Origin: Nitrospirota bacterium
GTDB lineage: Bacteria; Nitrospirota; Thermodesulfovibrionia; UBA6902; JAJYJJ01
Direction: 5' to 3'
Assembly: GCA_021789595.1 (NCBI GenBank)
Contig: JAJYJJ010000001.1
Location: forward strand, 62,001-126,000
DNA: 64,000 bases
Within the stretch, counting starts at the first letter, position 1, and the number at the start of each line of letters is the position of its first letter. The position numbers were made by a program, and so were the translations under genes. This document shows, in pieces, positions 3,704 to 31,843 of this stretch. The notes under the pieces were generated by a model that was given only the letters and a program-made list of their open reading frames with translations, was not told the DNA's origin and did no database searches.

Positions 3704-4696
3704 ATGAAAAGGAATTATTACATAACAAAAAACGGCAGACTCAAGCGGAAGGATAACACTCTCTACTTGGAGTTTGAGACGGGTGAAAAGAAGGCGATCC
3801 CAGTTGAGGACGTGGAAGGGCTCTATCTTATGGGTGAAACGGACCTGAATACCAAACTCCTGAACTTCCTTTCGCAGCAGAAGATACCCGTGCACGTGTT
3901 CAACTATTATGGCTATTATTCAGGTTCCTATTATCCGAGGGAACATCTGAATTCCGGATTCCTGCTGGTAAACCAGGTGGAATGTTACAAGGACAAGGGG
4001 AAAAGGCTGGCTATCGCAAAAGAGCTGATAAACAGCGCAGCACATAATATCCTTCGCAACCTGAAGTATTATCAGAACAGAAAAGGAGGGCTTGAAACTT
4101 ACATATCAGGAATAGAAGCCAAATTGCCTGAACTCGATAAGTCATCGGGTATCCTTGAACTGATGGCATGGGAGGGACACGTAAGGGAGCGGTATTATGA
4201 CAGCTTCAACCTCATCCTCGAACTTGAGGAAGAATTCACGAAGCGGACAAAAAGGCCGCCCGACAACATGATTAACGCCCTCATATCTTTCGGTAACTCC
4301 CTTTTGTACGCAACGACGCTTGGGGAGATTTACCATACACAGCTCAATCCCACTATAAGCTTCCTGCATGAGCCTGGAAACAGGAGGTTCTCACTCAGTC
4401 TGGATATAGCGGAAGTTTTCAAGCCTGTTATTGTGGATCACGTAATCTTTAAGCTGCTGAATACGAAGATGCTTGGAGAAAGTGATTTTGAAAAAGATGT
4501 AAATTTTTGCTATCTTTCTGAGAACGGCAGAAAGGTATTTTTGAAGGAATACGATGAGCGGCTCAATACGACAATCAAGCACAGGTCGATCGGCAGAAAT
4601 GTTTCATATAGGCATCTGATTAAGCTGGAGTGTTATAAGATCGAAAAATATGTCGCGGGGATTGAAGAGTATAAGGGATTCAGGACATGGTGGTAA
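3704..4696 (+). CDS. cas1: Cas1 integrase
   Basis: A 330-residue Cas1 of the type I-B/I-A lineage. The N-terminal beta domain is followed by the catalytic helical domain with LELMAWEGHVRERYYDSF (metal-binding Glu), LNPTISFLHEPGNRRFSLSL (His) and DIAEVFKPVIVDH (Asp), the three expected metal ligands. It forms the spacer integrase with Cas2. Start ATG 3704 encodes MKRNYYITKNGRLKRKDNTL, the usual N-terminus. An inverted-repeat element separates it from cas4, and a second one from cas2, so the adaptation operon has been invaded twice without damaging a gene. Confidence 0.96.
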   Translation: MKRNYYITKNGRLKRKDNTLYLEFETGEKKAIPVEDVEGLYLMGETDLNTKLLNFLSQQKIPVHVFNYYGYYSGSYYPREHLNSGFLLVNQVECYKDKGKRLAIAKELINSAAHNILRNLKYYQNRKGGLETYISGIEAKLPELDKSSGILELMAWEGHVRERYYDSFNLILELEEEFTKRTKRPPDNMINALISFGNSLLYATTLGEIYHTQLNPTISFLHEPGNRRFSLSLDIAEVFKPVIVDHVIFKLLNTKMLGESDFEKDVNFCYLSENGRKVFLKEYDERLNTTIKHRSIGRNVSYRHLIKLECYKIEKYVAGIEEYKGFRTWW

Positions 4697-9092: not shown

Positions 9093-10235
9093 CTATCTCA
9101 GAAAATCCTGCACCTGCTTTTTTATCTTGAGGTGATGTAGGGGGATATTCGGCACATCTTTATTCCCGGGGACGGCGAGGGCATGGATAAATCTTAGTCC
9201 CTTACACGGATTTTTCATGACATCAATTAACTGTTTCTTGCCTGCCACTTTAATTGTGTCTTTTATACCGAAACCCTTTGCCACAAGCTCAAGATCTACG
9301 CATGAGGCGGTAAGTGTAGGCTGGTCTCCTGTTGAGCCGTAGGAACCATTATCTATTGCAATAATTGTCAGATTCTCTGGCGCAAGATAGGCAGCAGTTG
9401 CAAGGCAACCAGGATTCATTAAAAGGCTGCCGTCGCCATCTATAACAATAACCTGCTTATTTGATGTAAGCGATATCCCGAGGCCGATCGGGGTTGCCAT
9501 ACCCATACTTCCGAGCATGTAAAAATTGGAAGGCTGATGTTTTATGTAAAAAAGCTCCTTTGATGGGAATCCAAGATTGCATACGACAACCTTTGAATCA
9601 AGATAAGGTGCAATAATATCCAGAATTTCATAACGGGTAAATCTCCGGGGAGATGCACGATGTATGATGCCAGATGCACGATCAGTTTTTATATCCAGCA
9701 TCCAGCATCCTGTATCCTGTATCACGACTTCTGAATCTTCCCATATTGCAGGACTGAGCAAGAACGCATGTATCTTGTTTTTCCTGTAAACATCGGGAAG
9801 TTTCGCCTCTATAACCTTAAAATCATCCTTTGTACTGATAATCGAACATGGTATGCCTGCTCCTCTAAGAACCCCTGGAAGCCTCTTGCCCATAGGCACC
9901 TGAGCTTCAATCCCTTCTTTATATACCCCCCTATGGCTTACAAAGACAGCAAGCGGCAATTTATAGAATCCAGTAAGGGACAGTAGGGCGTTTATCATAT
10001 TGCCAACACCTGAGCTCTGGACGAACATGGCAGGTCTTCTGCCCCCGAGTGCAGCACCGGCACATATGCCAACACCTTCCTCCTCTCTTGTTAAAGGGAT
10101 ATGATATAGGGGTCTATGGCCATATGCCCCTATAATTAATTCGAGGAGGTTTTTAATCTTCTCGCAGGGCAGAGAGCAGACAAAATCTATATCTCTTTTA
10201 AGAATCTCTATTAACTCTTCTTCAGGGTATGGCAC
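9093..10235 (-). CDS. comDE: Sulfopyruvate decarboxylase, fused alpha and beta chains (coenzyme M biosynthesis)
   Basis: A 380-residue thiamin-diphosphate enzyme joining a ComD-like half (about 1-170; TREEEGVGICAGAALGGRRP with the catalytic Glu, then QSSGVGNMINALLSL) to a ComE-like half (about 197-380; GSMGMATPIGLGISL, then VIVIDGDGSLLMNPG with the cofactor-binding GDG at 267-269 and AIDNGSYGSTGDQ). It converts sulfopyruvate to sulfoacetaldehyde on the way to coenzyme M. Methanosarcina-type ComDE has the same fused order. The linker (about 172-196) is encoded by repeat-like DNA (see findings). The start overlaps the end of the cysteate synthase gene by 25 bases. A phosphonopyruvate decarboxylase is the main alternative, but the partner gene argues for sulfopyruvate. 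Confidence 0.85.
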   Translation of the reverse strand: MPYPEEELIEILKRDIDFVCSLPCEKIKNLLELIIGAYGHRPLYHIPLTREEEGVGICAGAALGGRRPAMFVQSSGVGNMINALLSLTGFYKLPLAVFVSHRGVYKEGIEAQVPMGKRLPGVLRGAGIPCSIISTKDDFKVIEAKLPDVYRKNKIHAFLLSPAIWEDSEVVIQDTGCWMLDIKTDRASGIIHRASPRRFTRYEILDIIAPYLDSKVVVCNLGFPSKELFYIKHQPSNFYMLGSMGMATPIGLGISLTSNKQVIVIDGDGSLLMNPGCLATAAYLAPENLTIIAIDNGSYGSTGDQPTLTASCVDLELVAKGFGIKDTIKVAGKKQLIDVMKNPCKGLRFIHALAVPGNKDVPNIPLHHLKIKKQVQDFLR

Positions 10236-11467
10236 AGCAGAGTTTCTATCTCCTTCTCTGAAATATTTTTTGACACAACAATGGGTTTGACTTCATAAGT
10301 CATAACATCCATCTTCAGCCTCTCTTCGCCTCCTCCTGTGATGTTAAGCAATATGGTATCGTCCTTCTGAACTATTCCATCGTTAATACTATTTACAAGT
10401 GCAGCCACTGCAACACCAGCAGCAGGAACAATATCAATCCCTTCTGTCTCTTTGAACAGATCCATTGCAGAGTAGACATCTTCATTTCTGACACCGTACA
10501 TCCTGCCACCAGTATCTATGAGTGCATCATATACCCCACCCTTAACAGAATAGGCAGGATAACGGTTTGACAGGACACGCGTTGTTATTAATCCTATAAG
10601 TTCGGGCCTCAGATCTTCAAGGAAAAGTTCCCTGCTTCCCTTCTGCCATGCCTTGACCATCGGCGCAAAGGGTAGATTCTGAGCAAGGTGAAGGGCTGGC
10701 AATCTATCGCCAAATCTGCCGTCTTTCAAAAACCTCTCGGCCATCTCCCATACAGCTATTGCTCCTGTTCCACTGCCAACAGCCTGGAAATAGTGTTCGG
10801 GGAGTCTCCCCATCTTTGATACTGCTTCAAGCAATACAACGCCAAGTCCGTCTCTCTTGGCTATGTTTTTCACGCCGCCTTCAAATGGTATTTCAAGGGC
10901 TAATGATATTGTCCTTGCCACATCAATAGAATCTGAATAATCGCCGTCGGCTAATGCTATGGTAGGTATTATTGATGAGCCCTCAAGATACCACATATCT
11001 ATAAGACACATATGCGGCACTACAATGACAACCGGGAACCCTGATATAGAAGAGAGATGGGAGAATGCCCTAGCAGTATTTCCAGCAGAGGCCACAATCA
11101 GCCCATTCATGCGGTTTTCCATTGCATTCTGTAGCACAACTGCTGCCTCAAACTCCTTAAATGTGCATGTCTGAAGTGACGCTTCCATCTCTGGCCAGTA
11201 CCCATTAAATGCAATGTAAAGGTTTTCAAGGCCGAGGCGTTCAGAGATACCTCTGGATTTATAAACCACAGGGCCTGACTGATAAAATTTATGGGTATGA
11301 ACCGGCAGCCAGTTAAACCTCCAGACGCCTTCAGCCTTTGTCTCGGTAAAAAGTCTATCCTTATAGTCTGTTACAAGGAGCGCATCCTTGCAGTGGCCGC
11401 AGAAGGCACAGTGTACCTCCTTTAATTCCTTTCCACAGTTTCTGCATCTTATGCTGAAATGACTCAT
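10211..11467 (-). CDS. Cysteate synthase-like PLP enzyme (threonine synthase superfamily)
   Basis: This 418-residue PLP enzyme has an N-terminal zinc ribbon (Cys8, Cys11, Cys20, Cys23/26) and a fold II lyase core. The Schiff-base lysine is probably Lys104 in SLQTCTFKEFEAAV, where ordinary threonine synthases read SFKDRG. The phosphate loop is NITGGGEERLK near the C-terminus. Cysteate synthase of Methanosarcina (about 416 residues) makes L-cysteate from O-phosphoserine and sulfite, the first step of its coenzyme M route. The TFKExEA motif, length and overlap with the comDE gene favour cysteate synthase over threonine synthase. Sulfite supply may come from the TauE/DsrE region at 25-32 kb. Substrate assignment is by context and motif, not proven. 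Confidence 0.78.
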   Translation of the reverse strand: MSHFSIRCRNCGKELKEVHCAFCGHCKDALLVTDYKDRLFTETKAEGVWRFNWLPVHTHKFYQSGPVVYKSRGISERLGLENLYIAFNGYWPEMEASLQTCTFKEFEAAVVLQNAMENRMNGLIVASAGNTARAFSHLSSISGFPVVIVVPHMCLIDMWYLEGSSIIPTIALADGDYSDSIDVARTISLALEIPFEGGVKNIAKRDGLGVVLLEAVSKMGRLPEHYFQAVGSGTGAIAVWEMAERFLKDGRFGDRLPALHLAQNLPFAPMVKAWQKGSRELFLEDLRPELIGLITTRVLSNRYPAYSVKGGVYDALIDTGGRMYGVRNEDVYSAMDLFKETEGIDIVPAAGVAVAALVNSINDGIVQKDDTILLNITGGGEERLKMDVMTYEVKPIVVSKNISEKEIETLLCHTLKKS

Positions 11468-11476
11468 ATTACCTCC

Positions 11477-12682
11477 TCAAATCAGGCTTCCAACCAGCTC
11501 CATAATATCCACAATTCTTATCTGTTTATCATAGTCTACCATGGCCTCATTCACCTTCGAATAGCATGCAGGACAGCTTAGAATAAGCTTCTCTGCCTTC
11601 TTCTTTACAGCCTCGTCAATTGTTAATCTTCCCATAGCAATAGCATTTTCATGAAAGACCTTTCTTGCAGCGCCGCCTGCACCGCAGCACCGTGAGTTGA
11701 GGCCGTGTCTTTCAAACTCCAGTAGTTCAACGCCAGGTATACTTCTGAGGACGATCCTCGGCTCATCTATCACACCAACCCCCCTGCTTAGATAGCATGG
11801 GTCATGGTAGATAATCCTCTCCTTCAATTCTTTTTTAAACCTTAACCTGCCCTGCCTTATCGCGTCTGCAACAAACTGGGTGATGTGCCTTATCTTAAAG
11901 GGCAGTTGTTGCCCATAGAACAATGGCCAGTCCCTTGACATAATATTTACACAGCATGGGCATGAACACAAGAGTAACCTGACACCCCTTGCCCTGTATG
12001 CATTGACAAGCCTTTTGGTCAGGTCCTCAAGCATATCATGCTGGCCTGTGATGAACAGCGGAAATCCGCAGCATACCTCTTCTTCAGGGGGAAGCATTGT
12101 AAATGGCTCACCAATTGCATTAAGCACGAGCACATCACCCCTTACCATTGGCTGTGCCTCATACGCGCCTGTGCATCCAGCATAGTATGCAATATCTGAT
12201 CTTTCCGAAACCATTACGCCTTCAGGAAACCAGGGGCTATATCTCTGCTCAGGCGGTTTATCGTATATGTTCCCTGTCCTCTCTATTGCCTTTGGAAGGT
12301 TTGCCTGTGGACCAATCGGGGCAAGCCCCCTTCTTACCATCTCCTTCCTCAACATAGGCCAGAGCCTCTGTGTGAAGATGCCTACAGTGCAGTTCTGGCC
12401 ACATGCGCCGCATGTAGTGCATTCATAGACGGCCTTTGTAAAATCCTCAAGAAGTTTCTTGTCTATATCCCTCGGACCAAACAGCCTGGCCTTAAGCCCG
12501 TCGGTAGCCTTTATGAACTCCCTGAACATCCTTATCTTCTCCGGGGGTGAGATGGCAGGTCTGCCTGTCACATCCTGGACCGGACAATGCTTTAGGCATT
12601 CGCTGCATCGGGTGCATGAATCAAGCTCTATCAACTGAAGCTTTGAGAGGCAGCCTGTGAAGTCTTTTTCATCAGCCTTCAT
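11477..12682 (-). CDS. HdrD-like heterodisulfide reductase catalytic subunit
   Basis: A 401-residue iron-sulfur protein. Two [4Fe-4S] motifs come first, CTRCSECLKHCP (about 23-34) and CTTCGACGQNC (about 88-98). Two CCG domains follow: AGCTGAY, VCCGFPL and CSCPCC make the first; HDPCYLSRGVG, SRCCGAGGA and SCPACYSK the second. This is the HdrD/GlpC/DsrK architecture; in methanogens HdrD reduces the CoM-S-S-CoB disulfide using electrons from HdrE. The start overlaps the end of the membrane partner by 11 bases. With coenzyme M genes directly downstream, a thiol/disulfide substrate is plausible. DsrK-like or lactate-oxidase-type roles remain possible. Confidence 0.82.
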   Translation of the reverse strand: MKADEKDFTGCLSKLQLIELDSCTRCSECLKHCPVQDVTGRPAISPPEKIRMFREFIKATDGLKARLFGPRDIDKKLLEDFTKAVYECTTCGACGQNCTVGIFTQRLWPMLRKEMVRRGLAPIGPQANLPKAIERTGNIYDKPPEQRYSPWFPEGVMVSERSDIAYYAGCTGAYEAQPMVRGDVLVLNAIGEPFTMLPPEEEVCCGFPLFITGQHDMLEDLTKRLVNAYRARGVRLLLCSCPCCVNIMSRDWPLFYGQQLPFKIRHITQFVADAIRQGRLRFKKELKERIIYHDPCYLSRGVGVIDEPRIVLRSIPGVELLEFERHGLNSRCCGAGGAARKVFHENAIAMGRLTIDEAVKKKAEKLILSCPACYSKVNEAMVDYDKQIRIVDIMELVGSLI

Positions 12683-13487
12683 GTAATATGCCTCTAAGTT
12701 TTTCGTTATGTTTTATTGCCGCAGATGTTACTATCTGTGCAGAAAACATATGGAATTGCTTTGAGAAAGGTATATAGGCGATAAATGATAAGGCTGATGC
12801 TGCATGAGACAGCCAAACAAGCCGGTGTGCCAGGATATAAGATGAGGCGATTCCCCCAAAGACAGCCTCGAATACCCTTGCGAAAAGATACCCTACAGGA
12901 GACCAGTCCATTGATGGAGGACGAAAATATGCCAGCCTGAGCCCCTCTGTGCTGAAACCCGTAATGATTATGAGGAGCAAAAGGCAGAGTATGACAGCAT
13001 CGTCCATAGAGGAAACAATATTTTCTGATCTGAAAACATATCTCCTGCCAAGGTAAAAGATTATGCAGATTCCAAGGAGGGCTCCTGCGATGTCAAGTAT
13101 CATAGAATAAACAAGATAGGCCATGCCATTTAAAAAATTCAGACGGAGGTCATAGTCTAAAGACAATATGACTGTGCCCATAAAAAGGGTAAGGAAACTC
13201 CATATTGTAATTACGAGCACGACGCCCCTCACCCTGCTCTTTTCAAAGACCCTTTTTGCAAAAAAGCATTCCTTTGAAAAGAGACCTTTGAGGCTCATCC
13301 TGGCAAGCTCAATGCCCCTCATGCCATAGACGATGTCATCAGGATTATCCTTCCCCCTGAGCCACACCGAGAACTTCACCCAGATGCCTGAAATAAAAAG
13401 CCCGGATGCAAGGACAGCAGATGCATAAAATACTGTTCTAAAAACTCCTGGGATGTTCCAGAAGACCTCTCTGGTTACATGGGTCAT
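12672..13487 (-). CDS. HdrE/DsrM-like membrane cytochrome b subunit
   Basis: A 271-residue NarI-superfamily membrane protein with about five or six transmembrane segments. The C-terminal signature HRLVWLSHAASALSFIAY followed by PFSKQFHMF carries the histidines that ligate b-type hemes in HdrE, DsrM and NarI. It would pass electrons between the quinone pool and the HdrD-like protein on the cytoplasmic side. Coupling to hdrD (11-base overlap) matches the hdrED pair of Methanosarcina and the dsrMK pair of sulfate reducers. The N-terminal 80 residues contain a soluble loop before the cytochrome region. Confidence 0.8.
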   Translation of the reverse strand: MTHVTREVFWNIPGVFRTVFYASAVLASGLFISGIWVKFSVWLRGKDNPDDIVYGMRGIELARMSLKGLFSKECFFAKRVFEKSRVRGVVLVITIWSFLTLFMGTVILSLDYDLRLNFLNGMAYLVYSMILDIAGALLGICIIFYLGRRYVFRSENIVSSMDDAVILCLLLLIIITGFSTEGLRLAYFRPPSMDWSPVGYLFARVFEAVFGGIASSYILAHRLVWLSHAASALSFIAYIPFSKQFHMFSAQIVTSAAIKHNEKLRGILHEG

Positions 13488-13495
13488 TGATCCCC

Positions 13496-14434
13496 TTATG
13501 TCATCATAAAAGGACTCTTCATCTGTTCATTCCTCTGCGCCGATTTCACTGTATTTTCAAGGAGCATTGCTATAGTCACAGGGCCAACACCGCCAGGCAC
13601 AGGCGTGATGAAGGATGCCTTTTCCCCAACTGATTCAAAATCTACATCGCCCACAATACTTCCATCTTCAAGTATATTAATACCTATATCCACAACCACT
13701 GCACCCTCTTTGACCATATCTGCCTTTATCAGTCCCTTTACCCCTGTTGCCGAACACAGGATGTCTGCCTGGCGTGTAAAGAAACTCAGGTCGCGGGTCT
13801 CCCTGTGGCAGACAGTAACCGTTGCCTCTTTTGCAAGGAGCATCATAGAAAGAGGCTTGCCAACAGCAAGGCTCTTTCCAACAACTACGGCATTTTTGCC
13901 TTTTATTTCCACCCCGTAAAACTCAAGAAGCCTTATAACCCCATAGGGCGTGCATGGGAGAAAACTTGAAAGCCTTGGCATAAACCCTCTGTTGTTAAGA
14001 ACCTTGAGATTGTCATGGAATATCTGAAATGTGGATTCGTCGGCAGCAAGGCGTCCAATAGAGATAGAGCCGAGCCCATCTACATCCTTTTCAGGAGAAA
14101 TAGTATTTACAACCCTTCTTGCATTTATTCTTGGTGGCAGGGGAAAGAGGATCAAAAGACCGTGTATCCGCTCATCATGGTTAACAGAATATACAACATT
14201 AAGAATCTCATTGGCGGAGGCTGTTGCAGGCAATCTGTATTCATATGCGTTTATGGCGACCTTTTTGCATGATTTTAAGGTTGCCAGAAAATATTGTTTT
14301 GAAGCCAGATTATCGCCAACAAGCACTATGGCAAGACCGACATCGATACCAAACCTTTTTAAACCTTCAACATTCTTTCTGACCTCCGCCTTGATCTCAT
14401 CGGCAAGTCTTTTACCATCCATTATGGTAGCCAT
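13496..14434 (-). CDS. folD: FolD homologue lacking the cyclohydrolase Lys and Gln
   Basis: A 312-residue member of the methylene-tetrahydrofolate dehydrogenase/cyclohydrolase family. VGDNLASKQYF, PEKDVDGLG, PCTPYGVIRLLEF, VVGKSLAVGKPLSMMLL and PGGVGPVTIAML are all conserved. However, the catalytic lysine of the YxxxK motif is Thr52 (YFLAT), and the glutamine of the VQLPLP motif is Leu96 (LILFPLP). Those two residues are needed for the cyclohydrolase and for full activity in characterised FolD enzymes, while the NADP-binding half looks normal. It may be dehydrogenase-only or act on a modified pterin. It sits between the Hdr pair and the corrinoid activator, so it plausibly serves C1 flow from the MtrH-like protein. 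Confidence 0.88.
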   Translation of the reverse strand: MATIMDGKRLADEIKAEVRKNVEGLKRFGIDVGLAIVLVGDNLASKQYFLATLKSCKKVAINAYEYRLPATASANEILNVVYSVNHDERIHGLLILFPLPPRINARRVVNTISPEKDVDGLGSISIGRLAADESTFQIFHDNLKVLNNRGFMPRLSSFLPCTPYGVIRLLEFYGVEIKGKNAVVVGKSLAVGKPLSMMLLAKEATVTVCHRETRDLSFFTRQADILCSATGVKGLIKADMVKEGAVVVDIGINILEDGSIVGDVDFESVGEKASFITPVPGGVGPVTIAMLLENTVKSAQRNEQMKSPFMMT

Positions 14435-14466
14435 CGAATACCTCCAAGCTGTAACATGTCATCCCT

Positions 14467-14781
14467 TTATTTTGAGAATACTATACTAACATCTTTTGGA
14501 AGACACATGCCTGCCTCAACCTCAATGGCCTTTAGAATCCCTCCTGGCACAGGACAGGCAACATGTTTTAAATGTCTTGTTGCAGACCTGTACACAGGAT
14601 TGCTGAGATAGCCTGAGAATACAGCCATCATATCAAGGGTAGGGATATCTTCAAGCATTGCCTTTACCATCCTGCATTCTGTATCGAGTTCAACGGCAAA
14701 TGTCCGCTTCTCAAGTCTATTAACAGTAACTGTCACTGTATAACCGCATATGCCGGACTGAATGGTAACCTTCGTCATCAT
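14467..14781 (-). CDS. Small four-cysteine protein of a methyltransferase-cluster family
   Basis: A 104-residue soluble protein with four cysteines (in SGICGYTV, DTECRMV, HVACPVPGG and AGMCLPKD), no membrane segment and no signal. The arrangement resembles a small family (DUF6951, from memory) that recurs beside corrinoid methyltransferases and their activators; I have no function for it. It lies 19 bases downstream of the activator gene and 32 bases upstream of folD, clearly within the operon. The Cys pattern could hold a metal or an iron-sulfur cluster, perhaps to pass electrons to the corrinoid. Confidence 0.6.
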   Translation of the reverse strand: MMTKVTIQSGICGYTVTVTVNRLEKRTFAVELDTECRMVKAMLEDIPTLDMMAVFSGYLSNPVYRSATRHLKHVACPVPGGILKAIEVEAGMCLPKDVSIVFSK

Positions 14782-14800
14782 CCTTTGGCTGTCCCTCCTC

Positions 14801-16786
14801 CTATCCTGCCTGTCCTTTTATCTCTGCAGCGTATGCTGATTTTTCAAGAAGTTTCTTTAGATTCGGGAAAGGGTCTTTCATATGAGGTATGTGCATGGCC
14901 TGCACGAACTCCTTCTGAAAATTGGGTTCAACCGCTATCTCAACGAACTCCACCCACCTGGCCTTTTCTTCAGCCTCAAGCCTCTTATCCCTGTTAAGGA
15001 GTGCTATTCTTGCACCATCGCCTGCTGCATTGCCCACAGCATAAACATTGTCTATATCGCAGTCAGGGAACATCCCCAGGGTCATGGCAGATTCCTTATC
15101 AATATAACTGCCAAATGCACCTGCAAGTATTACCTTATCAAGTTTATTAATACCCATCTTTTGCATCATCAGTTTTGCGCCTGCATACAGTGCTCCCTTT
15201 GCAAGCTGTAAGGCCCTTACATCAGCCTGGTTTATTATTATGTCTGTGCCTATGGATGTCTCATCTGCCCATGCAAGCACATACTCAGGCCTTCCATCTG
15301 AATCCCGCCTTATCCTTGGTGTATTCAATTCCATATTGAACTTGCCTGTTTTATCAATTATACCTGCCTTGTACATCTCGGCAACCGCATCAATAATCCC
15401 TGAGCCGCAGATTCCCTTGGCATCTATCTTTTCGAGGTGGGTGTGCCAGTCTGCTTTTCCTATGACCTTGTATTCAGGCTCTCTGGTCTCAGGATTTATC
15501 CGTATCTTTTCTATGGCCCCTGGTGCTGCCCTCATCCCGAACTTTATCTGGGCGCCTTCAAAGGCAGGCCCTGTTGCACAGGATGTTGAACATACCCGTT
15601 CTTTATTGCCGAGCAGAAGTTCACCGTTTGTGCCTATGTCTATTATTAAAACCTTTTCCTCCTGATTATATGGTTCCTCTGCAATGAGCACGCCAACATT
15701 ATCAGCCCCAACAAATCCTGCCTCTATGGGAAGCACATGTATGTAAGATGCGGGATTTATCTTTATGCCCATATCCCTTGACTTTATATCCAGTGCGTGC
15801 TGGACTGCCGGTATAAATGGGGAGCGGCCGATGTATTCAGGGTTAAAGCCCAGAAAGATATGATGCATTGCAGTATTAAATACAATGGTCATATCAACTA
15901 TAGCCCCGCCGCCGTCTTTTTTGCCATTGACCCTGAGGTCATGTGTGATCTTGCTTATTATCTCATTCAGCCCTTCTATAATTGTCCTCTGCATCTTCTC
16001 AAGACCATCTGGATTCATCATGGCATATGTAATCCTGGACATCACATCCTCTCCGTAGGGCACCTGTGGGTTCATCATGGACTCCGTGTTAACCACCTTG
16101 CCTGTATTGAAGTCGCATAGATAACCAACAACGGTTGTGGTTCCCACATCTACAGCAAGCCCATAGGAGGACTCGATGAAACCGTGTTCTACCTTTATAA
16201 TCTCCCTATCCATCCATATAGAGGCTGTGAGTCTCCATTGTCCTTTTCTCAGGGCATCCTGCAGCTCCTTTAGCACAAGGTAATCGATGGACAGGTTTTT
16301 CAGGCCGTATTGGGCATCAAGAATATCCTTTACCCTTTCTACATCACCCCTGGTCAGATCGTGGAGTGTTGGCGGTTGCAGCTCTATGAAGTATTTTTTC
16401 ACCGCTGGCTCAAGCTTGATGGTCAGTTCCTTGGCTGCCTTTCTGACTATCTGTTTGCCTGCCCTTGATTTTTCAGGAACAAATATCTTTACATCTCCGT
16501 GAACCTCTGCTGTGCATGCAAGCCTCATGTGATGGCCGTCTTCGGGCTTTATGAATTTTCTTTCAACCTCTGTAAAGGCACTGAGATGTGACATCTTGGA
16601 GTCCATGGAATCCTTCTCAAAAAAGCCCTCCTCAACTCTGACCTTGCATTTCCCGCATGTGCCCTTACCACCGCATATGGACTCTATATCCACACCGAGA
16701 TGCCTTGCAGCATCAAGAAGGGTTGTGCCATCCACTACCTCTCCTCTCCTGCCAGATGGCTGGAAGATTACCCTCTGTTTTATCAT
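14801..16786 (-). CDS. RACo-type ATP-dependent corrinoid-protein activator
   Basis: A 661-residue protein with an N-terminal plant-type [2Fe-2S] domain (Cys38, Cys44, Cys47 in SICGGKGTCGKC and Cys91 in LACTAEV), a middle region, and a C-terminal ASKHA ATPase domain (VDVGTTTVVGYLCDF, IDIGTNGELLLG, GICGSGIIDAVAEMY, GAFGSYIDKESA). RACo and RamA-type proteins return inactive Co(II) corrinoid to Co(I) so that methyl transfer can restart. It is preceded by a good ribosome site and lies in line with the corrinoid protein gene. The domain order matches RACo, not the archaeal RamA. Confidence 0.88.
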   Translation of the reverse strand: MIKQRVIFQPSGRRGEVVDGTTLLDAARHLGVDIESICGGKGTCGKCKVRVEEGFFEKDSMDSKMSHLSAFTEVERKFIKPEDGHHMRLACTAEVHGDVKIFVPEKSRAGKQIVRKAAKELTIKLEPAVKKYFIELQPPTLHDLTRGDVERVKDILDAQYGLKNLSIDYLVLKELQDALRKGQWRLTASIWMDREIIKVEHGFIESSYGLAVDVGTTTVVGYLCDFNTGKVVNTESMMNPQVPYGEDVMSRITYAMMNPDGLEKMQRTIIEGLNEIISKITHDLRVNGKKDGGGAIVDMTIVFNTAMHHIFLGFNPEYIGRSPFIPAVQHALDIKSRDMGIKINPASYIHVLPIEAGFVGADNVGVLIAEEPYNQEEKVLIIDIGTNGELLLGNKERVCSTSCATGPAFEGAQIKFGMRAAPGAIEKIRINPETREPEYKVIGKADWHTHLEKIDAKGICGSGIIDAVAEMYKAGIIDKTGKFNMELNTPRIRRDSDGRPEYVLAWADETSIGTDIIINQADVRALQLAKGALYAGAKLMMQKMGINKLDKVILAGAFGSYIDKESAMTLGMFPDCDIDNVYAVGNAAGDGARIALLNRDKRLEAEEKARWVEFVEIAVEPNFQKEFVQAMHIPHMKDPFPNLKKLLEKSAYAAEIKGQAG

Positions 16787-16831
16787 CTAACCTCCTCTAA
16801 AATTAGGCTAATCCAGTTCGGAATCTGGGAA

Positions 16832-17509
16832 TTATGAGTTTCGAGATATTAATTGCTCCGAACTAAAAACTTCTGACTTAAAAATCTTTCGACCATAAGG
16901 GCATATATTTATACATAATCCGCAATTTGGTCTGCCGTTTACAGTCCTGCTATTTTTCTTGTAAGAGTTGCATCTATCAGGTCTGACAAGCTGGGTGAAT
17001 GGTTCATATCTCGACCAGTTTCTGCCAGTAAGTGCATTTGATGGACAGAACTCAACGCACATACTGCAGTCTCCGCATCGGCTGAATTCAATGGCTGTGC
17101 CAACCTGAAATGGTGCATCTGTTAACACTGTTGCAAGCGAGAGTCTCGGCCCATACCTATGGTTTATAAAAAGGCCATTCTTTCCGATCCAGCCAAGTCC
17201 TGCGGATGTAGCAGCTATTTTATGGGTAAAGAGGGGATAGAGTCTGGATATGAATGTGTTTTTCCACCTGTCCGAATCAGGCGGTATGCATAGATACCTG
17301 TACCCTCTCTGTTTAAGCCATCTTGCTGTCTTGCTCTCAAGCGAGGTCAATAGGTTTACAGTATCCTCATTCAGATTTCTGTTTACACATATGGCAATTG
17401 CCCTTCCAAGATGCGATATCTCTCCTTTAAGGGCATCCTTTACCTCAGCTATACCCACTAAGGTGGCCCCTGCATTGAGAAGTTCATCTCGAAGTGTTTC
17501 GACTTTCAA
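16832..17509 (-). CDS. Short QueG-like double [4Fe-4S] protein
   Basis: A 225-residue protein with an N-terminal domain resembling epoxyqueuosine reductase (LGWIGKNGLFINHRYGPRLS is the usual segment) and two ferredoxin motifs: CGDCSMCVEFCP, then CGLCINICPYG. True QueG is about 350 residues and ends in helical repeats, which are absent here. Its start overlaps the stop of the corrinoid protein gene by four bases, so they are coupled. QueG is a cobalamin reductase-like enzyme, so a role in reducing or loading the corrinoid is a fair inference. Queuosine synthesis seems unlikely from the context. Confidence 0.7.
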   Translation of the reverse strand: MKVETLRDELLNAGATLVGIAEVKDALKGEISHLGRAIAICVNRNLNEDTVNLLTSLESKTARWLKQRGYRYLCIPPDSDRWKNTFISRLYPLFTHKIAATSAGLGWIGKNGLFINHRYGPRLSLATVLTDAPFQVGTAIEFSRCGDCSMCVEFCPSNALTGRNWSRYEPFTQLVRPDRCNSYKKNSRTVNGRPNCGLCINICPYGRKIFKSEVFSSEQLISRNS

Positions 17510-18195
17510 CTTTTCCTTGCCTCTGCCTCTTCCTTGAGTTTTTTCAATGAGCTTATCATATTGATCGCATCCTTCAAGGCATTGTTTGCATCCTTGGCAT
17601 ATCCATCAGCACCCCATTTCTCAGCTATGTCTTGAGAAACAGGTGCACCGCCTATCATTATCTTTACATTAGGGTTTTTTGTCTTAAGCTCTTCTATTAC
17701 CTTCTTCATGCCGACCATTGTTGTTGTCATCATTGCAGAGAGGCATACAAGGTCAGAGTCTGTCTTCATCTGCTCTTCCACAAATTTATCAAGCGGCACA
17801 TCCCTGCCCAGGTCGTATACGGTAAAGCCAGCCACATCGAACATCATCTTCACAATGTTTTTGCCTATGTCATGAACATCGCCCTCAACCGTTCCTATGA
17901 CAACAGAACCTCTCACACCGAGATCCATCTTTTTCACATGGGGCTTGAGTATATCAAGGCCGGCATAGAGGGCATCTGCGCACATTAGTAATTCAGGGAC
18001 AAAGTACTCCTGAGCCTCGAACAGTCGACCAACCTCTTCCATGCCGCTCACAAGGCCATTAAATATGGCGTCGTTTGGATCCATCCCTATATCAAGGGCC
18101 TCTTTGGAGGCATCCTTTGCAGTATCCTCATCGTACTGTATTACTGCATTCTTTAGCCTTTCCAGTATCTCCTGTTTTTTTTCTCCCGTTACCAT
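17506..18195 (-). CDS. Corrinoid protein of a methyltransferase system (MtaC/MtbC-like)
   Basis: A 229-residue two-domain protein: an N-terminal four-helix cap (about 1-90) and a cobalamin-binding Rossmann domain with the motif EGDVHDIGKN, where His108 is the lower cobalt ligand, followed by DLGRDVP and later IMIGGAPV. It carries the methyl group on cobalt between two methyltransferases. It lies between the QueG-like gene and the MtaA-like gene in the order seen in methanol and methylamine systems. The methyl donor cannot be read from it. Confidence 0.92.
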   Translation of the reverse strand: MVTGEKKQEILERLKNAVIQYDEDTAKDASKEALDIGMDPNDAIFNGLVSGMEEVGRLFEAQEYFVPELLMCADALYAGLDILKPHVKKMDLGVRGSVVIGTVEGDVHDIGKNIVKMMFDVAGFTVYDLGRDVPLDKFVEEQMKTDSDLVCLSAMMTTTMVGMKKVIEELKTKNPNVKIMIGGAPVSQDIAEKWGADGYAKDANNALKDAINMISSLKKLKEEAEARKS

Positions 18196-18199
18196 AGAT

Positions 18200-19249
18200 C
18201 TACCTCCTGTATTTTTTTACTTCTTCCATCATTACATTTATGTTTTCTGGCGGCACAGTCGGCCAAATATCGCATCCAGGCCATACAGCACTGACACCAT
18301 CGTCTATACACTTTCTTATAGTCTCCCTGACCTTTTCAGTTGTACCTGCCACAAGGACATTGTATGGGTCGTAATTTCCAAATATCAGGGCATCCTTGCC
18401 GAGCCTCTTTCTTGTTTCGGCAACATCGTTCTTCTGGTCAACACTTATTGCCTTTACATTAGTCTCCATCATAAAAGAGACAATGTCGTTTGTCTTTCCA
18501 CATATATGGATTACGCTCGGCACAGTCAGCTTATCAAAGATCTTTTTAAGATAAGGCTGTATCAGATTCTTAAAGACCCGCGGGCTTAGAACATCCGAGG
18601 TTGCACCCATCTCCCTCACTGTTATATAATCTACCCCTGCTTTTTCATACTGTTTTGCCACTGTAACAATGGCATCAGCAAGTAGGTCGAGGAGCTTACC
18701 TACCTTGTCAGGTTTTTTAAAGGAAAGTTTCAAGAGGTCGTTGAGTTCCATTATCTGTCCTGCAAGGGTGAATGGGCCAAGGACATAGGAACCGATGGCG
18801 ACCTCACCGCCTATATCCCTTTTCATTAATCTGATCGCCTCGCATATAAGCGGTATCCTGCCCCTTTCTGATATGTTCACAGGAATAGAGATGTCCATCT
18901 CATCCTCGTTATGGATCAACTTCTTTTTTATTGTCGGATACAGTATGTCCTCTAAGTGGGCATAGACATTTATCTCACAGCCAAGTGCCTCTGCCTCTAC
19001 ACAGAGGTCAAAAGGGACAACTCCGCATTCAAAGCCGAACAGCTTGTATGTGGATGCTGCTGCCTCTGACATCATTTTTGCGTCAGAATGAAGGGCGGCG
19101 AATTTGTATCCATATTTCCTCAGTCCTTCTGTTGTAACATTCCCCATGCCGCTGAAGCATGGAGGTCTGTCAATAGCTTCACCTGCAAAGAGCTGCATTA
19201 CCCGTTGTTTTGCTGATAATGTTGTTGTCAACGCTTTCTCCTTGTGCAT
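18200..19249 (-). CDS. MtaA/MtbA-like zinc methyltransferase (UroD superfamily), copy 1
   Basis: A 349-residue UroD-fold protein. Zinc ligands are visible at His248 and Cys250 (VIHICGKTND) and Cys326 (WPGCDIWPTVPP), the same spacing as His237, Cys239 and Cys316 of MtaA. MtaA moves methyl from the corrinoid protein to coenzyme M; other members move methyl from substrates to cobalt. It lies four bases before the corrinoid protein gene. With coenzyme M genes in the same operon, a CoM methyltransferase is the leading reading, but a substrate:corrinoid role is not excluded. Ordinary uroporphyrinogen decarboxylase is excluded by the zinc motif. Confidence 0.82.
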   Translation of the reverse strand: MHKEKALTTTLSAKQRVMQLFAGEAIDRPPCFSGMGNVTTEGLRKYGYKFAALHSDAKMMSEAAASTYKLFGFECGVVPFDLCVEAEALGCEINVYAHLEDILYPTIKKKLIHNEDEMDISIPVNISERGRIPLICEAIRLMKRDIGGEVAIGSYVLGPFTLAGQIMELNDLLKLSFKKPDKVGKLLDLLADAIVTVAKQYEKAGVDYITVREMGATSDVLSPRVFKNLIQPYLKKIFDKLTVPSVIHICGKTNDIVSFMMETNVKAISVDQKNDVAETRKRLGKDALIFGNYDPYNVLVAGTTEKVRETIRKCIDDGVSAVWPGCDIWPTVPPENINVMMEEVKKYRR

Positions 19250-19264
19250 GTTTTCATTTCTGTA

Positions 19265-20212
19265 TTATTTCCTTGCTTCTCCAGCCATTAATTTCTCTAT
19301 AAAATCAGGGAAGAACCTTCTTATTGGAAGGTTGTCTTTCTCTGGTATATGTTTTGTCTCGCCGTATACAATCGTAGAAAGCAGTATATGTGCTGTGGCA
19401 ACGGCAGGGAATATACGCGGGGCAGTAACAATCGGTCCATAGAAGTTAAAATCACTCCAGAGCACAGAGGCCATGCCCTGGGCTACAGCATCCATTGCCT
19501 TAAAGCCGTCAGGCCCCCATAAATCTTTCGAGGCCTTCCACATATGAGTTCCGTTTGAATATGCACCACCGCATGGAAGCCCAAACTTATCCTTTATCAA
19601 CCTGTTGGCTATTAAGGAAAATGATGTAGCAGGCAGGTTCATTACAGAGGTATCTACAATAACGGTATCGAAGCTGTCTGCACCCTGCGATAGGATATTA
19701 TCGAGGGACTTTACTCGCCCCATTGGAGATTGGTCTTTATCATCAAAGGCCTGCACGACCACATGCTTTATCCCAAGGTCCTTCAGTCTATTTATCTGTC
19801 CTTTAATGTCCTTATCCCATGGCGTGATACTGTTATAGAGGAACTTGTCCTGGATCCCTAATTTAGCAATATGCTCAGTTGCCTGTGCCCTTTTCTCGGC
19901 AACCCACATATCTATGCCAAATGGCATGTTTGTTGTCTCAAGATAAAAATCTATATAAACCTCAGCCTCTTCAGGCGTATTTGCCACCATTGCCACCATT
20001 GCAGGTATGCCTGTAGAGTTTGAGAGCTCCTCCTGTTTGTTTATAAGTTCTTTTGCCTTTTGCCTGTCGAACCTGCCTTTTCTATCTTCAAGTATCCTGT
20101 CCTTGTTGTGAAACATAGAGGCTATAAGCAGGGGTGGATTGTCTCCAGGTTGACCGCCTATTTTGATTCCATTTATATCAAAGACCTTTTGTGCCCTTGT
20201 AAATCGGAACAT
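19265..20212 (-). CDS. MtrH-like methyl-pterin:corrinoid methyltransferase
   Basis: A 315-residue protein closely following MtrH: FRFTRAQKVFDINGIKIGGQ at the N-terminus, FDRQKAKELINKQEELSNST, then GIDMWVAEKR, FLYNSITPWD and a VDTSVMNLPATSF loop. MtrH is the subunit of the methanogen Mtr complex that transfers methyl between tetrahydromethanopterin and cobamide; bacterial relatives act on methyl-tetrahydrofolate. No other Mtr subunit is present, so it probably works as a soluble partner of the corrinoid protein encoded two genes away. Together they link the MtaA-like proteins to the folate pool and to the FolD homologue. Confidence 0.87.
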   Translation of the reverse strand: MFRFTRAQKVFDINGIKIGGQPGDNPPLLIASMFHNKDRILEDRKGRFDRQKAKELINKQEELSNSTGIPAMVAMVANTPEEAEVYIDFYLETTNMPFGIDMWVAEKRAQATEHIAKLGIQDKFLYNSITPWDKDIKGQINRLKDLGIKHVVVQAFDDKDQSPMGRVKSLDNILSQGADSFDTVIVDTSVMNLPATSFSLIANRLIKDKFGLPCGGAYSNGTHMWKASKDLWGPDGFKAMDAVAQGMASVLWSDFNFYGPIVTAPRIFPAVATAHILLSTIVYGETKHIPEKDNLPIRRFFPDFIEKLMAGEARK

Positions 20213-20283
20213 TCTCTCTCCTTAAATAAGCAAGGTAGTATTAAAGCAGGGGAGCGGCATAACCACTCCCCATTGTCTTTTGA

Positions 20284-20730
20284 CTAATAAACTCCGTGAT
20301 CAAACTTCGGCTGTGGCAGATATTCCCACGACTCGCCCTTTCGGTATTTGGCCTCTATGTCGAGGCATTTCAGTGCATACTCAAAGGCGTAAGGAATTCC
20401 TGGCCCGCCAGGAACAAAACCTGCGCCGATCATGCCGACTGCCGCCGCCTCAAATATCTCAGAAGTTGTAGCTCCTGCCTTAATAGCTGGAATCACATGA
20501 ATTATGCACCGCGGAGAACAGTATGAGACACCAATGGCTGTAAACATGAGCTCTTTTATCTTCTTTGAAAGTGCCCCGTCACCGAAAATGGTTGCGTAGA
20601 AATCTGCAAAGGTCTTTCCAGGATCTGGTGTTACAGTGTTTATTATCTTGAACATCCTTGGGACAAACCCCATAACATCTTCCATATACTTGTTGGCCTC
20701 TTCAGCCGTCATCTTCTTTTCCCCAGCCAT
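20284..20730 (-). CDS. Carboxymuconolactone decarboxylase-like (AhpD superfamily) protein
   Basis: A 148-residue CMD-fold protein. The usual CxxCxxxH active site is instead CSPRCIIH (Cys71, Cys75, His78), so one cysteine is shifted while Cys71 and His78 keep their spacing. AhpD-type members are thiol-disulfide enzymes. It stands between the MtrH-like gene and the second MtaA-like gene in the same orientation, so it belongs to the operon; a disulfide or peroxide role linked to coenzyme M thiol would be attractive but is speculation. A GGAGGG site precedes the ATG. Confidence 0.75.
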   Translation of the reverse strand: MAGEKKMTAEEANKYMEDVMGFVPRMFKIINTVTPDPGKTFADFYATIFGDGALSKKIKELMFTAIGVSYCSPRCIIHVIPAIKAGATTSEIFEAAAVGMIGAGFVPGGPGIPYAFEYALKCLDIEAKYRKGESWEYLPQPKFDHGVY

Positions 20731-20856
20731 CTTACCCTCCTTTTACCTGATGTAAACTCTCGGGTTAATAGTTTTTCATTTTCTCATAAATTCCCGTATT
20801 GACCTAAACCTCCCCCAAACTGCTGTAAACCGCCAATCCACTCTCACCTCCCCTCT

Positions 20857-21885
20857 TTAGAGTTTCCATTCCCTGGCAACCTGGATAAACTTCTGTATGT
20901 TCTCATAAGGCACTGTCGGTGGTATGTCACAGCCAGGCATGAGCACGAAGCCGCCGTCGGTGCCAGCGGTCTGGATCACTGATTTACAGGCATCCTCTAC
21001 TTCCTGAACTGTACCCTGAAGCATTATCTTCACAGGGTCAACATTCCCTGCAAAACACATCTTTCCATGTAGTATCTCTTTTGCCTTTGCGATATCGGTT
21101 TTATGGTCAAGACTTATACAGCTTGCACCTGTAAGAGGGAACAGATCCAGCCTGTCTGTTGTATTGCCGCAGATATGGACAAGGGTATGAACGCCCTTTG
21201 ACTTCGCCCAATCAGTAAACTTCTTAAGGTATGGCAGGGCAAATCTTTCGAACTGTTTTTTTGATATCAGATCGCCTGATGCAGTCGGGTCAGCAAGGCT
21301 TATAACCTCAAGGGTTCCATCAGCCACCAAAGGCTCATACAGATGGATCAATAGATCTGTGACAAGATTAACTATCTTCTCTACAAAAGCAGGTTTTTTA
21401 AAGGTAGCCTTCATCATTGCTTCCTCTCCAACCAGTCTTGCACCGAGGGTAAAAGGCCCCCACGCAGTCATTGTTACCACATACTCGTCACCGATCTTTG
21501 ATCTGGTAAGCCTGAGGGCATGTTTGACAGTATTGATAACCTCATCCCTGTCTATCCCTGATATGTCCAGTTTCTGCAGGTCTTCCTCTGCAGCAATCAA
21601 TGCTTCTTCAAGGTCAGGGGCGCCTATCTCCCTGAATTTGATCCTGCCTCCAAGTGCCGATGCATGAAAGTTGTTGTAGCCTGAACCGGCATACACAATA
21701 TCGCAGAGCAACCTGCCTGACATATGTGTAAGCATCTCAGACATCTTTAAGGCATCGAGGGATAGGTCCTTAAATGTGGTTCCGAAATTATGGATACTCC
21801 ACATCCCACCGCCAAAGATGGTCGCTGGCACCCTTTCTGGTTTACCGCCATCAAATGCTTTTAGGATTACCTCTCTTGGTTTCAT
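20857..21885 (-). CDS. MtaA-like zinc methyltransferase (UroD superfamily), copy 2
   Basis: A 342-residue UroD-fold protein with His237 and Cys239 (LVHICGNTTD) and Cys319 (LMPGCDIPPTVP), almost exactly the MtaA zinc numbering. It is a clear paralogue of the protein at 18200-19249 but not a recent duplicate; the two differ along most of their length. One of the pair may take methyl from a substrate and the other deliver it to coenzyme M, as in MtsA- or CmuA-type systems. It is the second gene of the transcript from the sigma-54 promoter at 22259-22274. Confidence 0.82.
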   Translation of the reverse strand: MKPREVILKAFDGGKPERVPATIFGGGMWSIHNFGTTFKDLSLDALKMSEMLTHMSGRLLCDIVYAGSGYNNFHASALGGRIKFREIGAPDLEEALIAAEEDLQKLDISGIDRDEVINTVKHALRLTRSKIGDEYVVTMTAWGPFTLGARLVGEEAMMKATFKKPAFVEKIVNLVTDLLIHLYEPLVADGTLEVISLADPTASGDLISKKQFERFALPYLKKFTDWAKSKGVHTLVHICGNTTDRLDLFPLTGASCISLDHKTDIAKAKEILHGKMCFAGNVDPVKIMLQGTVQEVEDACKSVIQTAGTDGGFVLMPGCDIPPTVPYENIQKFIQVAREWKL

Positions 21886-21896
21886 ATATATCTCCT

Positions 21897-22247
21897 TTAA
21901 GTTATAGATAATATGCCCAAATGATGGATATCGCGAACCACCTGTTTGAACTCTGCAAGGTCAACAGGCATCTTTATACCAAGGGCATCATTGGTATGTT
22001 TGGCACAGCCTAAGACTATTACACGCATATCAGGTGAAACACTTCTTATTATCTGTATTGCCTCTTCTACAGAAAGTCCAAAGGACTCTGAATCTATTAT
22101 TATTGCACTGTAGCTGCTCTTAAAAACCATCTGAACAGCGAGGGCAGGGTGGTCAGCGGTCTCAACGCTATAACCCTCATCTCTCAATATTCCATAGAGA
22201 CTCTTTACCAGGATTGGATTATGCGTGCATAAGATAATCTCGTTCAT
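21897..22247 (-). CDS. Degenerate response-regulator receiver domain
   Basis: A 116-residue stand-alone CheY-like domain. The phospho-acceptor Asp is present in SAIIIDSESFG, but the N-terminal acidic pair is replaced by CTHNP, so normal Mg-dependent phosphorylation is doubtful. It ends with a KMPVDLAEFKQVV helix. It is the first gene of the minus-strand methyl-transfer cluster. By sigma-54 promoter geometry its transcript would begin about one base before the ATG, so it may be translated leaderless. Its role may be to sense or scaffold; no output domain is attached. Confidence 0.65.
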   Translation of the reverse strand: MNEIILCTHNPILVKSLYGILRDEGYSVETADHPALAVQMVFKSSYSAIIIDSESFGLSVEEAIQIIRSVSPDMRVIVLGCAKHTNDALGIKMPVDLAEFKQVVRDIHHLGILSIT

Positions 22248-22258
22248 AAAAATTGTTT

Positions 22259-22274
22259 TGCAATTTTAGTGCCA
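22259..22274 (-). promoter_or_regulatory. Sigma-54 promoter of the methyl-transfer cluster
   Basis: On the minus strand the sequence reads TGGCAC, TAAAA, TTGCA, a full match to the -24/-12 consensus with correct spacing. The -12 C is at 22260, putting transcription start near 22248, one base before the ATG at 22247. It would drive the run of minus-strand genes from 22247 towards 9093. The sigma-54 activator encoded at 23292-25049 is the obvious candidate regulator. Confidence 0.85.
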
Positions 22275-26694: not shown

Positions 26695-26713
26695 TATGAG
26701 AGAAGGAGGGAAA

Positions 26714-27208
26714 ATGAAGATCAATATTAAAAGAATCTCCGGGATGTTGGCTTTCATTGTTATGATTGTAGCAGCTTCTGGGGTCGCTATGGCCAATGAT
26801 TTTAAAGGTGTAAAGGAAGTTAAGGCTGTATGGGATATCACTACTGGTGATGAAAATGTATTCGTAGATCGTGTTCAGTTGATCAAAGAGACAGCAGAGG
26901 GTCTGAAGAAACGCGGAATCAAGGTGGATTTTGTGCTGGTTATTCATGGTCCAGCAGCAAAGTTCGTAACAAAATCCCTGGCAGGCACAAAGTTTGAGAA
27001 GGATAAACTGGCTAAGCTTGATCAGATTCAATCAACGATGCAGAATTTAAGGAATGGGGGTGCCAAGATCGAAGTATGTTCCATAGCGATGAGTCGGGGC
27101 AAGATAGGCAGAGAAAATGTGCAACCCTTTGCAGTTATCGAGGACAATGTCTTTGAAAATACCATTGTTTTGGAAAACAAAGGGTATGCTTATATGCCGG
27201 TTCATTAG
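26714..27208 (+). CDS. Exported DsrE-like protein
   Basis: A 164-residue protein with a clear Sec signal peptide (KRISGMLAFIVMIVAASGVAMA, cut after AMA) and a DsrE/YchN-type domain: VWDITTGDENVFVDRVQLIK, VLVIHGPAAKFV, then KIEVCSIAMSRG with the single conserved cysteine and a GYAYMPVH tail. DsrE-like proteins carry sulfane sulfur on that cysteine. Start ATG 26714 is set by GGAGGG a few bases upstream; longer frames from 26660 would overlap the previous gene and hide the signal peptide. It is a close paralogue of the next gene, which lacks the signal. Confidence 0.8.
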   Translation: MKINIKRISGMLAFIVMIVAASGVAMANDFKGVKEVKAVWDITTGDENVFVDRVQLIKETAEGLKKRGIKVDFVLVIHGPAAKFVTKSLAGTKFEKDKLAKLDQIQSTMQNLRNGGAKIEVCSIAMSRGKIGRENVQPFAVIEDNVFENTIVLENKGYAYMPVH

Positions 27209-27240
27209 AAATGCAAAAATCCCCCATAAGGAGGAGATTG

Positions 27241-27654: not shown

Positions 27655-27666
27655 GATAACCGTGCA

Positions 27667-29349: not shown

Positions 29350-29388
29350 GAGTATGCAACTTAAAACAAATACAAGAGTTGATAGCTG

Positions 29389-30162: not shown

Positions 30163-30176
30163 AAGGAGACGATTTC

Positions 30177-31064: not shown

Positions 31065-31067
31065 TTT

Positions 31068-31802: not shown

Positions 31803-31843
31803 GAACCAAATATTCTAAAAATTAACTCAGGAGGTAAAAGAAA

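Follow-up and report, generated by a model that had tools for sequence, protein, structure and literature searches.

In a 64,000-nucleotide stretch of a Nitrospirota genome (the window; contig JAJYJJ010000001.1, positions 62,001 to 126,000), genes for a cysteate synthase (CS) and a fused sulfopyruvate decarboxylase (ComDE) overlap at the 3' end of a 13-gene operon on the minus strand (9093-21885). Coenzyme M is a cofactor found chiefly, as far as is known, in methane-producing archaea. This operon combines genes of cysteate-type coenzyme M synthesis with methyltransferases of the methyl-folate and coenzyme M types and with a disulfide reductase, an association that is new for bacteria and that occurs without methyl-coenzyme M reductase (MCR) or MMP16. 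The operon is conserved within the phylum in near-syntenic form and has an archaeal counterpart. Judging from its protein families and their gene context, we consider it likely that it encodes a coenzyme-M-dependent one-carbon module in a bacterium that does not perform methanogenesis.

Both reading frames of the pair are intact (9093-11467). CS (10211-11467, 418 amino acids, ATG start) scores 478.9 bits against the cysteate synthase equivalog TIGR03844, far above the cut-off of 324.9, and its second-best profile, a threonine synthase model, reaches 82.6 bits. An earlier note, made from the letters alone, had pointed to the lysine of a TFKEFEA motif and to a zinc ribbon in this protein; both are borne out, as neither Lys104 nor any of ribbon cysteines 8, 11, 20 and 23 changes across 41 CS rows, while the residues flanking Lys104 vary from row to row. 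The solved cysteate synthase PDB 9k3c is 43% identical to CS. ComDE (9093-10235, 380 amino acids, GTG start), the last gene of the operon, joins alpha and beta parts in a single chain, carries the thiamine-diphosphate motif GDGSLLMN and exceeds the cut-off of the alpha model TIGR03845 (184.2 versus 147.95 bits), and it stays well under that of the phosphonopyruvate decarboxylase model TIGR03297 (190.9 versus 312.5). Of five ComDE proteins scored, namely the window's, three more from Nitrospirota and one from Hydrothermarchaeota, all passed the alpha cut-off, two the beta cut-off and none TIGR03297. Profile cut-offs and branch positions in trees, a check set beforehand, together rule out that CS is a threonine synthase or ComDE a phosphonopyruvate decarboxylase, just as the note had held.

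The 25 nucleotides shared by the two genes, likewise reported in that note and matching the coordinates above, are not a local accident. At 37 homologous loci where full-length calls of both genes were possible, 36 show an overlap of 14-34 nucleotides, exactly 25 in 21 of these, which argues against chance; at the sole non-overlapping locus (L034) a DsrE-family gene sits between CS and ComDE. For such comparisons we used 40 of the 41 CS loci besides the window's own (G093 was left out), and ComDE accompanies CS in all 40.

CS alone is no sign of coenzyme M, because Bacteroidota use it for sulfonolipids: cysteate synthase is described as initiating sulfonolipid synthesis in this phylum (PMC11211663), and PDB 9k3c groups inside the Alistipes clade (Bacteroidota) of our CS tree. 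The pairing of CS with ComDE points to coenzyme M more strongly. Among the best 80 CS loci from a scan of named genomes, some of them with short flanks, CS was found outside Nitrospirota in Hydrothermarchaeota (48-51% identity), methanogens, ANME-1, Bacteroidota and a few other bacteria; a ComDE gene stands close by in 16 of the 21 archaeal loci, including four from Hydrothermarchaeota, and in 0 of the 25 bacterial loci outside Nitrospirota. The earlier description of these genes as coenzyme M genes of methanogen type therefore fits the pair better than it fits CS by itself. CS homologues without a nearby ComDE were also seen in metagenome-assembled genomes of WOR-3, Aminicenantes, Spirochaetaceae and Phycisphaerae (L128, L149, L151 and L133), where they perhaps serve sulfonolipids. 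In an ANME-1 (Methanophagales) locus (L127:7909-13317), an NMT1-type binding protein, a permease and an ATPase directly flank CS-ComDE, which suggests a transporter for sulfonates or coenzyme M.

The CS tree, a quick search whose root and deep order are unsure and whose outgroup branch measures about 4 changes per column, sets off its 17 Nitrospirota rows by a branch with support 78, separates methanogens and Bacteroidota from Nitrospirota and Hydrothermarchaeota (support 91) and assigns the two threonine-synthase-like proteins of the window's own genome to a long branch apart from the others (support 100). In the ComDE tree, which has one very distant sequence as outgroup, a branch (96/92) divides the fused chains found in Nitrospirota, Hydrothermarchaeota and ANME-1 from the split ComD and ComE of Methanosarcinaceae. 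The note had assigned the pair to the cysteate branch known from Methanosarcinales; this assignment is right in that CS and ComDE-type proteins are present, but the pair branches apart from Methanosarcinales, and MMP16/ComF was not found.

In transcription order, the operon encodes MtaA2, an AhpD-like protein, MtrH, MtaA1, a corrinoid protein, an Fe-S protein, RACo, DUF6951, FolD, a cytochrome b, HdrD, CS and ComDE. We followed its gene content by tblastn, and 28 of the 40 loci extend 9 kb or more beyond CS on its upstream side. MtrH, MtaA1, the corrinoid protein, the Fe-S protein, RACo, DUF6951 and HdrD lie on the CS strand in 26 of these 28. MtaA2 was detected in 17 and AhpD in 20 of the 28, counts in which gene loss and short flanks look alike because both genes are furthest from CS. 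FolD belongs to only some of the homologous operons, and the gene for the NarI-like cytochrome b is mostly too divergent for blast, its slot being occupied by a membrane protein that can be aligned to it (30 rows, including the window's). Extra divergent NarI-HdrD pairs (about 23-32% identity) stand ahead of the usual pair at three loci (L066, L071 and L073).

The note's placement of the pair in a methyl-transfer operon can be extended well beyond the window. In a set of 295 genomes from the phylum, CS scores above cut-off in 42 and MtaA1 is present (E<=1e-70) in 46, and every one of the 42 CS-bearing genomes has MtaA1. Four genomes carry MtaA1 without a CS above cut-off: one holds a CS fragment of 213.6 bits (G080), two have MtaA1 at a contig start (G267 and G076), and the last is 88% complete (G289). 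Since two further genomes (G225 and G196) keep CS-ComDE unlinked from the cluster, with MtaA1 on a different contig, linkage alone is insufficient to explain the association. A second MtaA1-like copy of 48-51% identity was observed in eight genomes (G269, G113, G058, G211, G279, G184, G263 and G289).

The methyl-transfer proteins belong to well-defined families. MtaA1 (18200-19249) resembles methylcobamide:coenzyme M methyltransferases and meets two MtaA/CmuA subfamily cut-offs (NF004889, 276.8 versus 244; TIGR01463, 256.9 versus 235.4), and it falls on the methanogen-methyltransferase side of its tree, together with M. mazei MtaA (100/98). Its His-Cys-Cys zinc ligands are kept in 27 of 27 full-length copies, as are those of MtaA2 (20857-21885), a second, divergent MtaA/UroD-family methyltransferase, in 10 of 10. 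According to the account in PMC10418091, such ligands are tied to the transfer of methyl groups on S or Se, and sites with a carboxylate substitution to O-demethylases. MtaA2 probably acts on a second thiol, either methylated or free, or on a selenol. MtrH (19265-20212) is an MtrH/MtgA-family methyltransferase transferring methyl groups between methyl-tetrahydrofolate (or pterin) and corrinoid (NF002142, 345.9 bits, cut-off 287), with 8z9u and the methylcorrinoid:tetrahydrofolate methyltransferase 6sj8 as nearest solved structures. The MtaC-type corrinoid protein (17506-18195; TIGR02370, 218.8 bits, cut-off 215.3) shows the DxHxxG motif, here DVHDIG, in 29 of 29 rows, and the RACo-type corrinoid reductive activase (14801-16786), identified by profile matches, its cysteine motif in 28 of 28. 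The HdrD-like disulfide reductase subunit (11477-12682; Pfam CCG and Fer4_8) has two [4Fe-4S] cysteine sets and two CCG domains, with 19 cysteines invariant across 37 rows. Its probable quinone partner is the NarI/HdrE-like membrane cytochrome b subunit (12672-13487; Pfam Nitrate_red_gam, 25.1 bits, cut-off 22.9), in which His228 and His246 are found in 29 of 30 rows, the window included.

This system has a counterpart in archaea. MtaA1 of Candidatus Pyrohabitans jungbluthii (the L119 genome) is 56% identical to the window's, the methanogen enzymes found reaching about 31%, and within 20 kb of it lie MtaA2 (49%), AhpD (64%), HdrD (41%), the corrinoid protein (64%), RACo (60%) and MtrH (45%); CS-ComDE occupies a separate contig from this methyl-transfer cluster. 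Nitrospirota and Pyrohabitans form joint clades for both MtaA1 (100/100) and MtaA2 (100/98). Hydrothermarchaeota are reported in PMC6775978 to be without mcr, and its authors say of methyl-SCoM that it 'may have an alternate fate'. Of all the evidence for coenzyme M as the partner of these methyltransferases, the strongest is the set of CS-ComDE and MtaA1 module that the two lineages share without MCR.

We propose that the operon could work as follows. CS, a cysteate synthase by family, would form cysteate from O-phosphoserine and sulfite, a general aminotransferase might convert cysteate to sulfopyruvate, and ComDE, whose protein family is equally clear, would yield sulfoacetaldehyde. Sulfur insertion to coenzyme M would then be left to an enzyme other than MMP16, or to sulfide non-enzymatically. 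MtrH and MtaA1 may shuttle methyl groups, in either direction, between methyl-tetrahydrofolate and coenzyme M via the corrinoid protein, which RACo would keep active; the soluble MtrH, corrinoid protein and MtaA1 would thus do the job of the membrane Mtr complex of methanogens. As their domains suggest, HdrD and the membrane cytochrome b could finally reduce or form the coenzyme M disulfide in exchange with the quinone pool.

The host genome (2.23 Mb, 99% complete) offers a plausible setting for this chemistry. It encodes a DsrA that scores above cut-off and lies next to a DsrB-like protein, and it gives a CODH/ACS beta match, which contains one stop, so that sulfite, sulfide and methyl-tetrahydrofolate are plausible metabolites. 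In methanogens, passing the methyl group of methyl-pterin on to coenzyme M is an energetically downhill step, and formation of methyl-coenzyme M would therefore be the thermodynamically easier direction. Methanogenesis and alkane oxidation are ruled out by the lack of MCR alpha, as PF02249 has 0 matches in this genome and was detected in 2 control methanogens. A nitrogenase-like methylthio-alkane reductase was considered as a sink for methyl-coenzyme M and rejected: the four nitrogenase-family matches cluster on one contig (C17) and look like ordinary NifDKEN.

Several observations weigh against the proposed coenzyme-M-dependent module. ComDE scores 220.0 bits against the beta model TIGR03846, 1.5 bits short of the cut-off of 221.5. 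The Fisher p of 9e-47 for the co-occurrence of CS and MtaA1 overstates their association, because the genomes are related. MtaA1 reaches 246.7 bits against the methanogen MtaA equivalog NF040654, under its cut-off of 400, so that we do not class it as MtaA proper and regard it only as working like MtaA; together with the clade of its own that it forms, this means that the acceptor could be another thiol. We know of no reaction that consumes methyl-coenzyme M without MCR. Finally, the MMP16/ComF domain PF01837 has 0 matches in the window's own genome (M. jannaschii and M. acetivorans were positive as controls), and TIGR03287 is over cut-off in 0 of 150 genomes of the class, the sub-cut-off matches listed being short and confined to the C-terminal ferredoxin-like part. 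At E<=1e-20 the same model has no match in 4 Hydrothermarchaeota, with Methanolobus positive. The complete methanogen pathway to coenzyme M, defined by the presence of MMP16/ComF, was accordingly not found in the window's genome or in the class sample.

MMP16 has been proposed as the main final enzyme in methanogens, and its loss is described as being masked by high sulfide (PMC12068725), so that a non-enzymatic final step would be possible in a sulfide producer. Two protein families are candidates for an enzymatic one, as leads rather than results. A cytosolic SsuA/TauA-family protein of 301-320 amino acids, which at most loci leaves no room for a signal peptide, is the direct neighbour of ComDE in all four Hydrothermarchaeota loci (its start in L119 is at 12368, the end of ComDE at 12378). 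Of 33 Nitrospirota loci (those of L034-L073 with at least 3 kb past CS), 10 encode it close to CS/ComDE, as do 8 of 23 in a named set that overlaps these; among 43 other CS loci the only match, a distant one, is in the ANME-1 locus L127. Full-length Nitrospirota matches are 40-46% identical to the L119 protein, and Cys74, His79, His121, Asp122, Cys257, His300 and His305 are invariant over 19 rows. Its model (pLDDT 88.7) matches the alkanesulfonate-binding SsuA (Z 31.1, root-mean-square deviation (rmsd) 2.6, 282 aligned) as well as TauA and the enzyme Thi5 (Z 26.9, rmsd 2.9, 284 aligned for the latter). Neither the window nor the remainder of its contig (C33) yielded the gene, the other contigs not having been searched for it, and the SsuA-type binding protein that the window does encode (25495-26694) is just 23% identical to the cytosolic one. 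The second candidate is a DsrE-family protein, encoded in the window outside the operon (31844-32263, plus strand), with homologues elsewhere: the protein encoded between CS and ComDE in L034 is 72% identical to it, and one in the Pyrohabitans cluster 45%.

A broader hypothesis would make methyl-coenzyme M a central one-carbon intermediate outside methanogenesis, common to Nitrospirota and Hydrothermarchaeota, with soluble MtrH, corrinoid protein and MtaA1 in place of Mtr, an MCR-free use coupled to HdrD and cytochrome b, and a new cytosolic SsuA/Thi5-fold synthase, possibly supplied by a DsrE-type carrier of sulfur, in place of MMP16. We advance it tentatively, as a possibility that may well prove wrong.

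Other explanations of the operon have to be set beside the one-carbon module. CS and ComDE might make a different sulfonate, either cysteate destined for a sulfonolipid or sulfoacetaldehyde on the way to taurine or isethionate, with no coenzyme M involved and the methyltransferases unrelated. The failure to find MMP16 would fit this, as would the role of CS in Bacteroidota sulfonolipids and the lack of a nearby ComDE at all 25 other bacterial loci in the survey; yet CS comes with ComDE and with MtaA1 without exception in the Nitrospirota compared, its branch is distinct from that of Bacteroidota, and the methanogen proteins of the MtaA family use coenzyme M. On balance, we regard this explanation as unlikely.

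Coenzyme M could also serve mainly as a redox thiol, whose disulfide the AhpD-like protein would form and HdrD with cytochrome b would reduce, the methyltransferases being a sideline. HdrD with its invariant cysteines and the AhpD-like gene are indeed kept both in the operon and in Pyrohabitans, and comDE overexpression shields methanogens from oxidative stress, according to the title of PMC12713407. Against such a role, which appears quite unlikely to us, HdrD is no more tightly conserved than MtaA1, MtrH and the corrinoid protein, and MtaA1 accompanies CS even where the two are unlinked. That the operon is a cluster for demethylating methyl-sulfur or methyl-selenium compounds, with an acceptor other than coenzyme M, seems very unlikely. 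The bacterial type 1 clusters described in PMC10418091 do combine His-Cys-Cys MtaA homologues with a corrinoid protein and an activase, but that description has them without an H4folate methyltransferase, whereas MtrH is present in nearly all loci here, and 'cysteate', 'sulfopyruvate' and 'nitrospir' occur 0 times in its main text. The coenzyme-M-dependent one-carbon module thus remains our preferred reading.

Among the other genes of the operon, FolD (13496-14434), a methylene-tetrahydrofolate dehydrogenase/cyclohydrolase, was identified by profile matches; the Fe-S protein (16832-17509) has two [4Fe-4S] sites and partial similarity to QueG and reductive dehalogenase models; and the AhpD/CMD-family protein (20284-20730) has one conserved cysteine, Cys75, plus His78. 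DUF6951 (14467-14781, 104 amino acids, PF22263) has the invariant residues Cys12, Cys36, His73 and Cys76. Its CPxP-like motif had raised the idea of a TusA-like carrier, which we dropped as its model leans weakly to IscU/SufU/SufE (best Z 6.5, rmsd 3.2, 89 aligned; best Foldseek E 0.097). Among 14 control genomes, this family (compared for the window and L203) was detected in M. acetivorans alone, and since that organism has MMP16 as well, DUF6951 is no obvious substitute for MMP16. At one locus (L062:5909-7459), a methyl-accepting chemotaxis-type protein (Pfam MCPsignal) is encoded inside the operon between DUF6951 and cytochrome b, and two others (L047 and L069) have open reading frames of 513-516 amino acids at the same position.

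Immediately 5' of MtaA2, at the head of the operon, lies a short response-regulator-like gene (21897-22247, minus strand; a weak match, E 4.6e-5), homologues of which precede MtaA2 in several loci. Beyond it, a sigma-54 promoter-like site, TGGCACTAAAATTGCA (22259-22274, minus strand), departs from the sigma-54 consensus by one mismatch, which falls outside the core -24/-12 letters. A sigma-54-dependent activator with a PAS domain (23292-25049, minus strand; profile match) is the probable regulator of the operon. Divergent from the activator gene, the plus strand holds an SsuA/NMT1-type ABC transporter region (25495-32263) with two permeases, two ATPases, three DsrE-family proteins and a TauE/SafE-type exporter, which is perhaps a sulfonate uptake system tied to the operon. 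Elsewhere in the window there is a Type I-B Cas1b gene (3704-4696, plus strand; 461 bits, cut-off 304.1).

The bacterial use of coenzyme M that is described in PMC12068725 is alkene metabolism, and we found neither this operon nor coenzyme M synthesis in Nitrospirota described in the open-licence PMC papers that we searched. If our proposal is true, coenzyme M carries methyl groups in a bacterial phylum and can be predicted in sulfur-metabolising Nitrospirota. Coenzyme M, cs or mtaA-type genes in metagenomes would then be no proof of methanogens. An undiscovered final step of coenzyme M synthesis would also be implied, one for which concrete candidate genes are at hand.

The operon can be compared with several known systems. 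With the type 2 (cysteate) pathway of Methanosarcina (cs, comDE, MMP16) it shares CS and ComDE as adjacent genes, but in Nitrospirota ComDE is fused, overlaps CS and lies inside a methyl-transfer operon, in a genome without MMP16 and MCR. Like methylotrophic methanogens (MtaA/MtbA, MtaC, Ram), it has a His-Cys-Cys UroD-family enzyme, an MtaC-type corrinoid protein and a RACo/Ram-type activase; in contrast to them, MtaA1 belongs to a separate clade with Pyrohabitans and the partner methyltransferase is of the MtrH type, acting on methyl-folate, rather than MtaB. Hydrothermarchaeota, represented by Candidatus Pyrohabitans, have the same MtaA2, AhpD, HdrD, MtaA1, corrinoid protein, RACo, MtrH and CS-ComDE, and MMP16 was not found there either, but they are archaea with another gene order and with CS-ComDE away from the methyl-transfer cluster. 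The type 1 mlp clusters (Kountz and Balskus, PMC10418091) are bacterial as well and contain SCMT homologues, a corrinoid protein and an activase; as described there, they miss an H4folate methyltransferase and go without mention of coenzyme M synthesis genes, whereas the Nitrospirota operon has both and adds HdrD and cytochrome b. The bacterial coenzyme M route of Xanthobacter, finally, leads to the same proposed product from a different start: it begins at phosphoenolpyruvate and, in the account of PMC12068725, departs after ComA, whereas Nitrospirota carry CS and ComDE.

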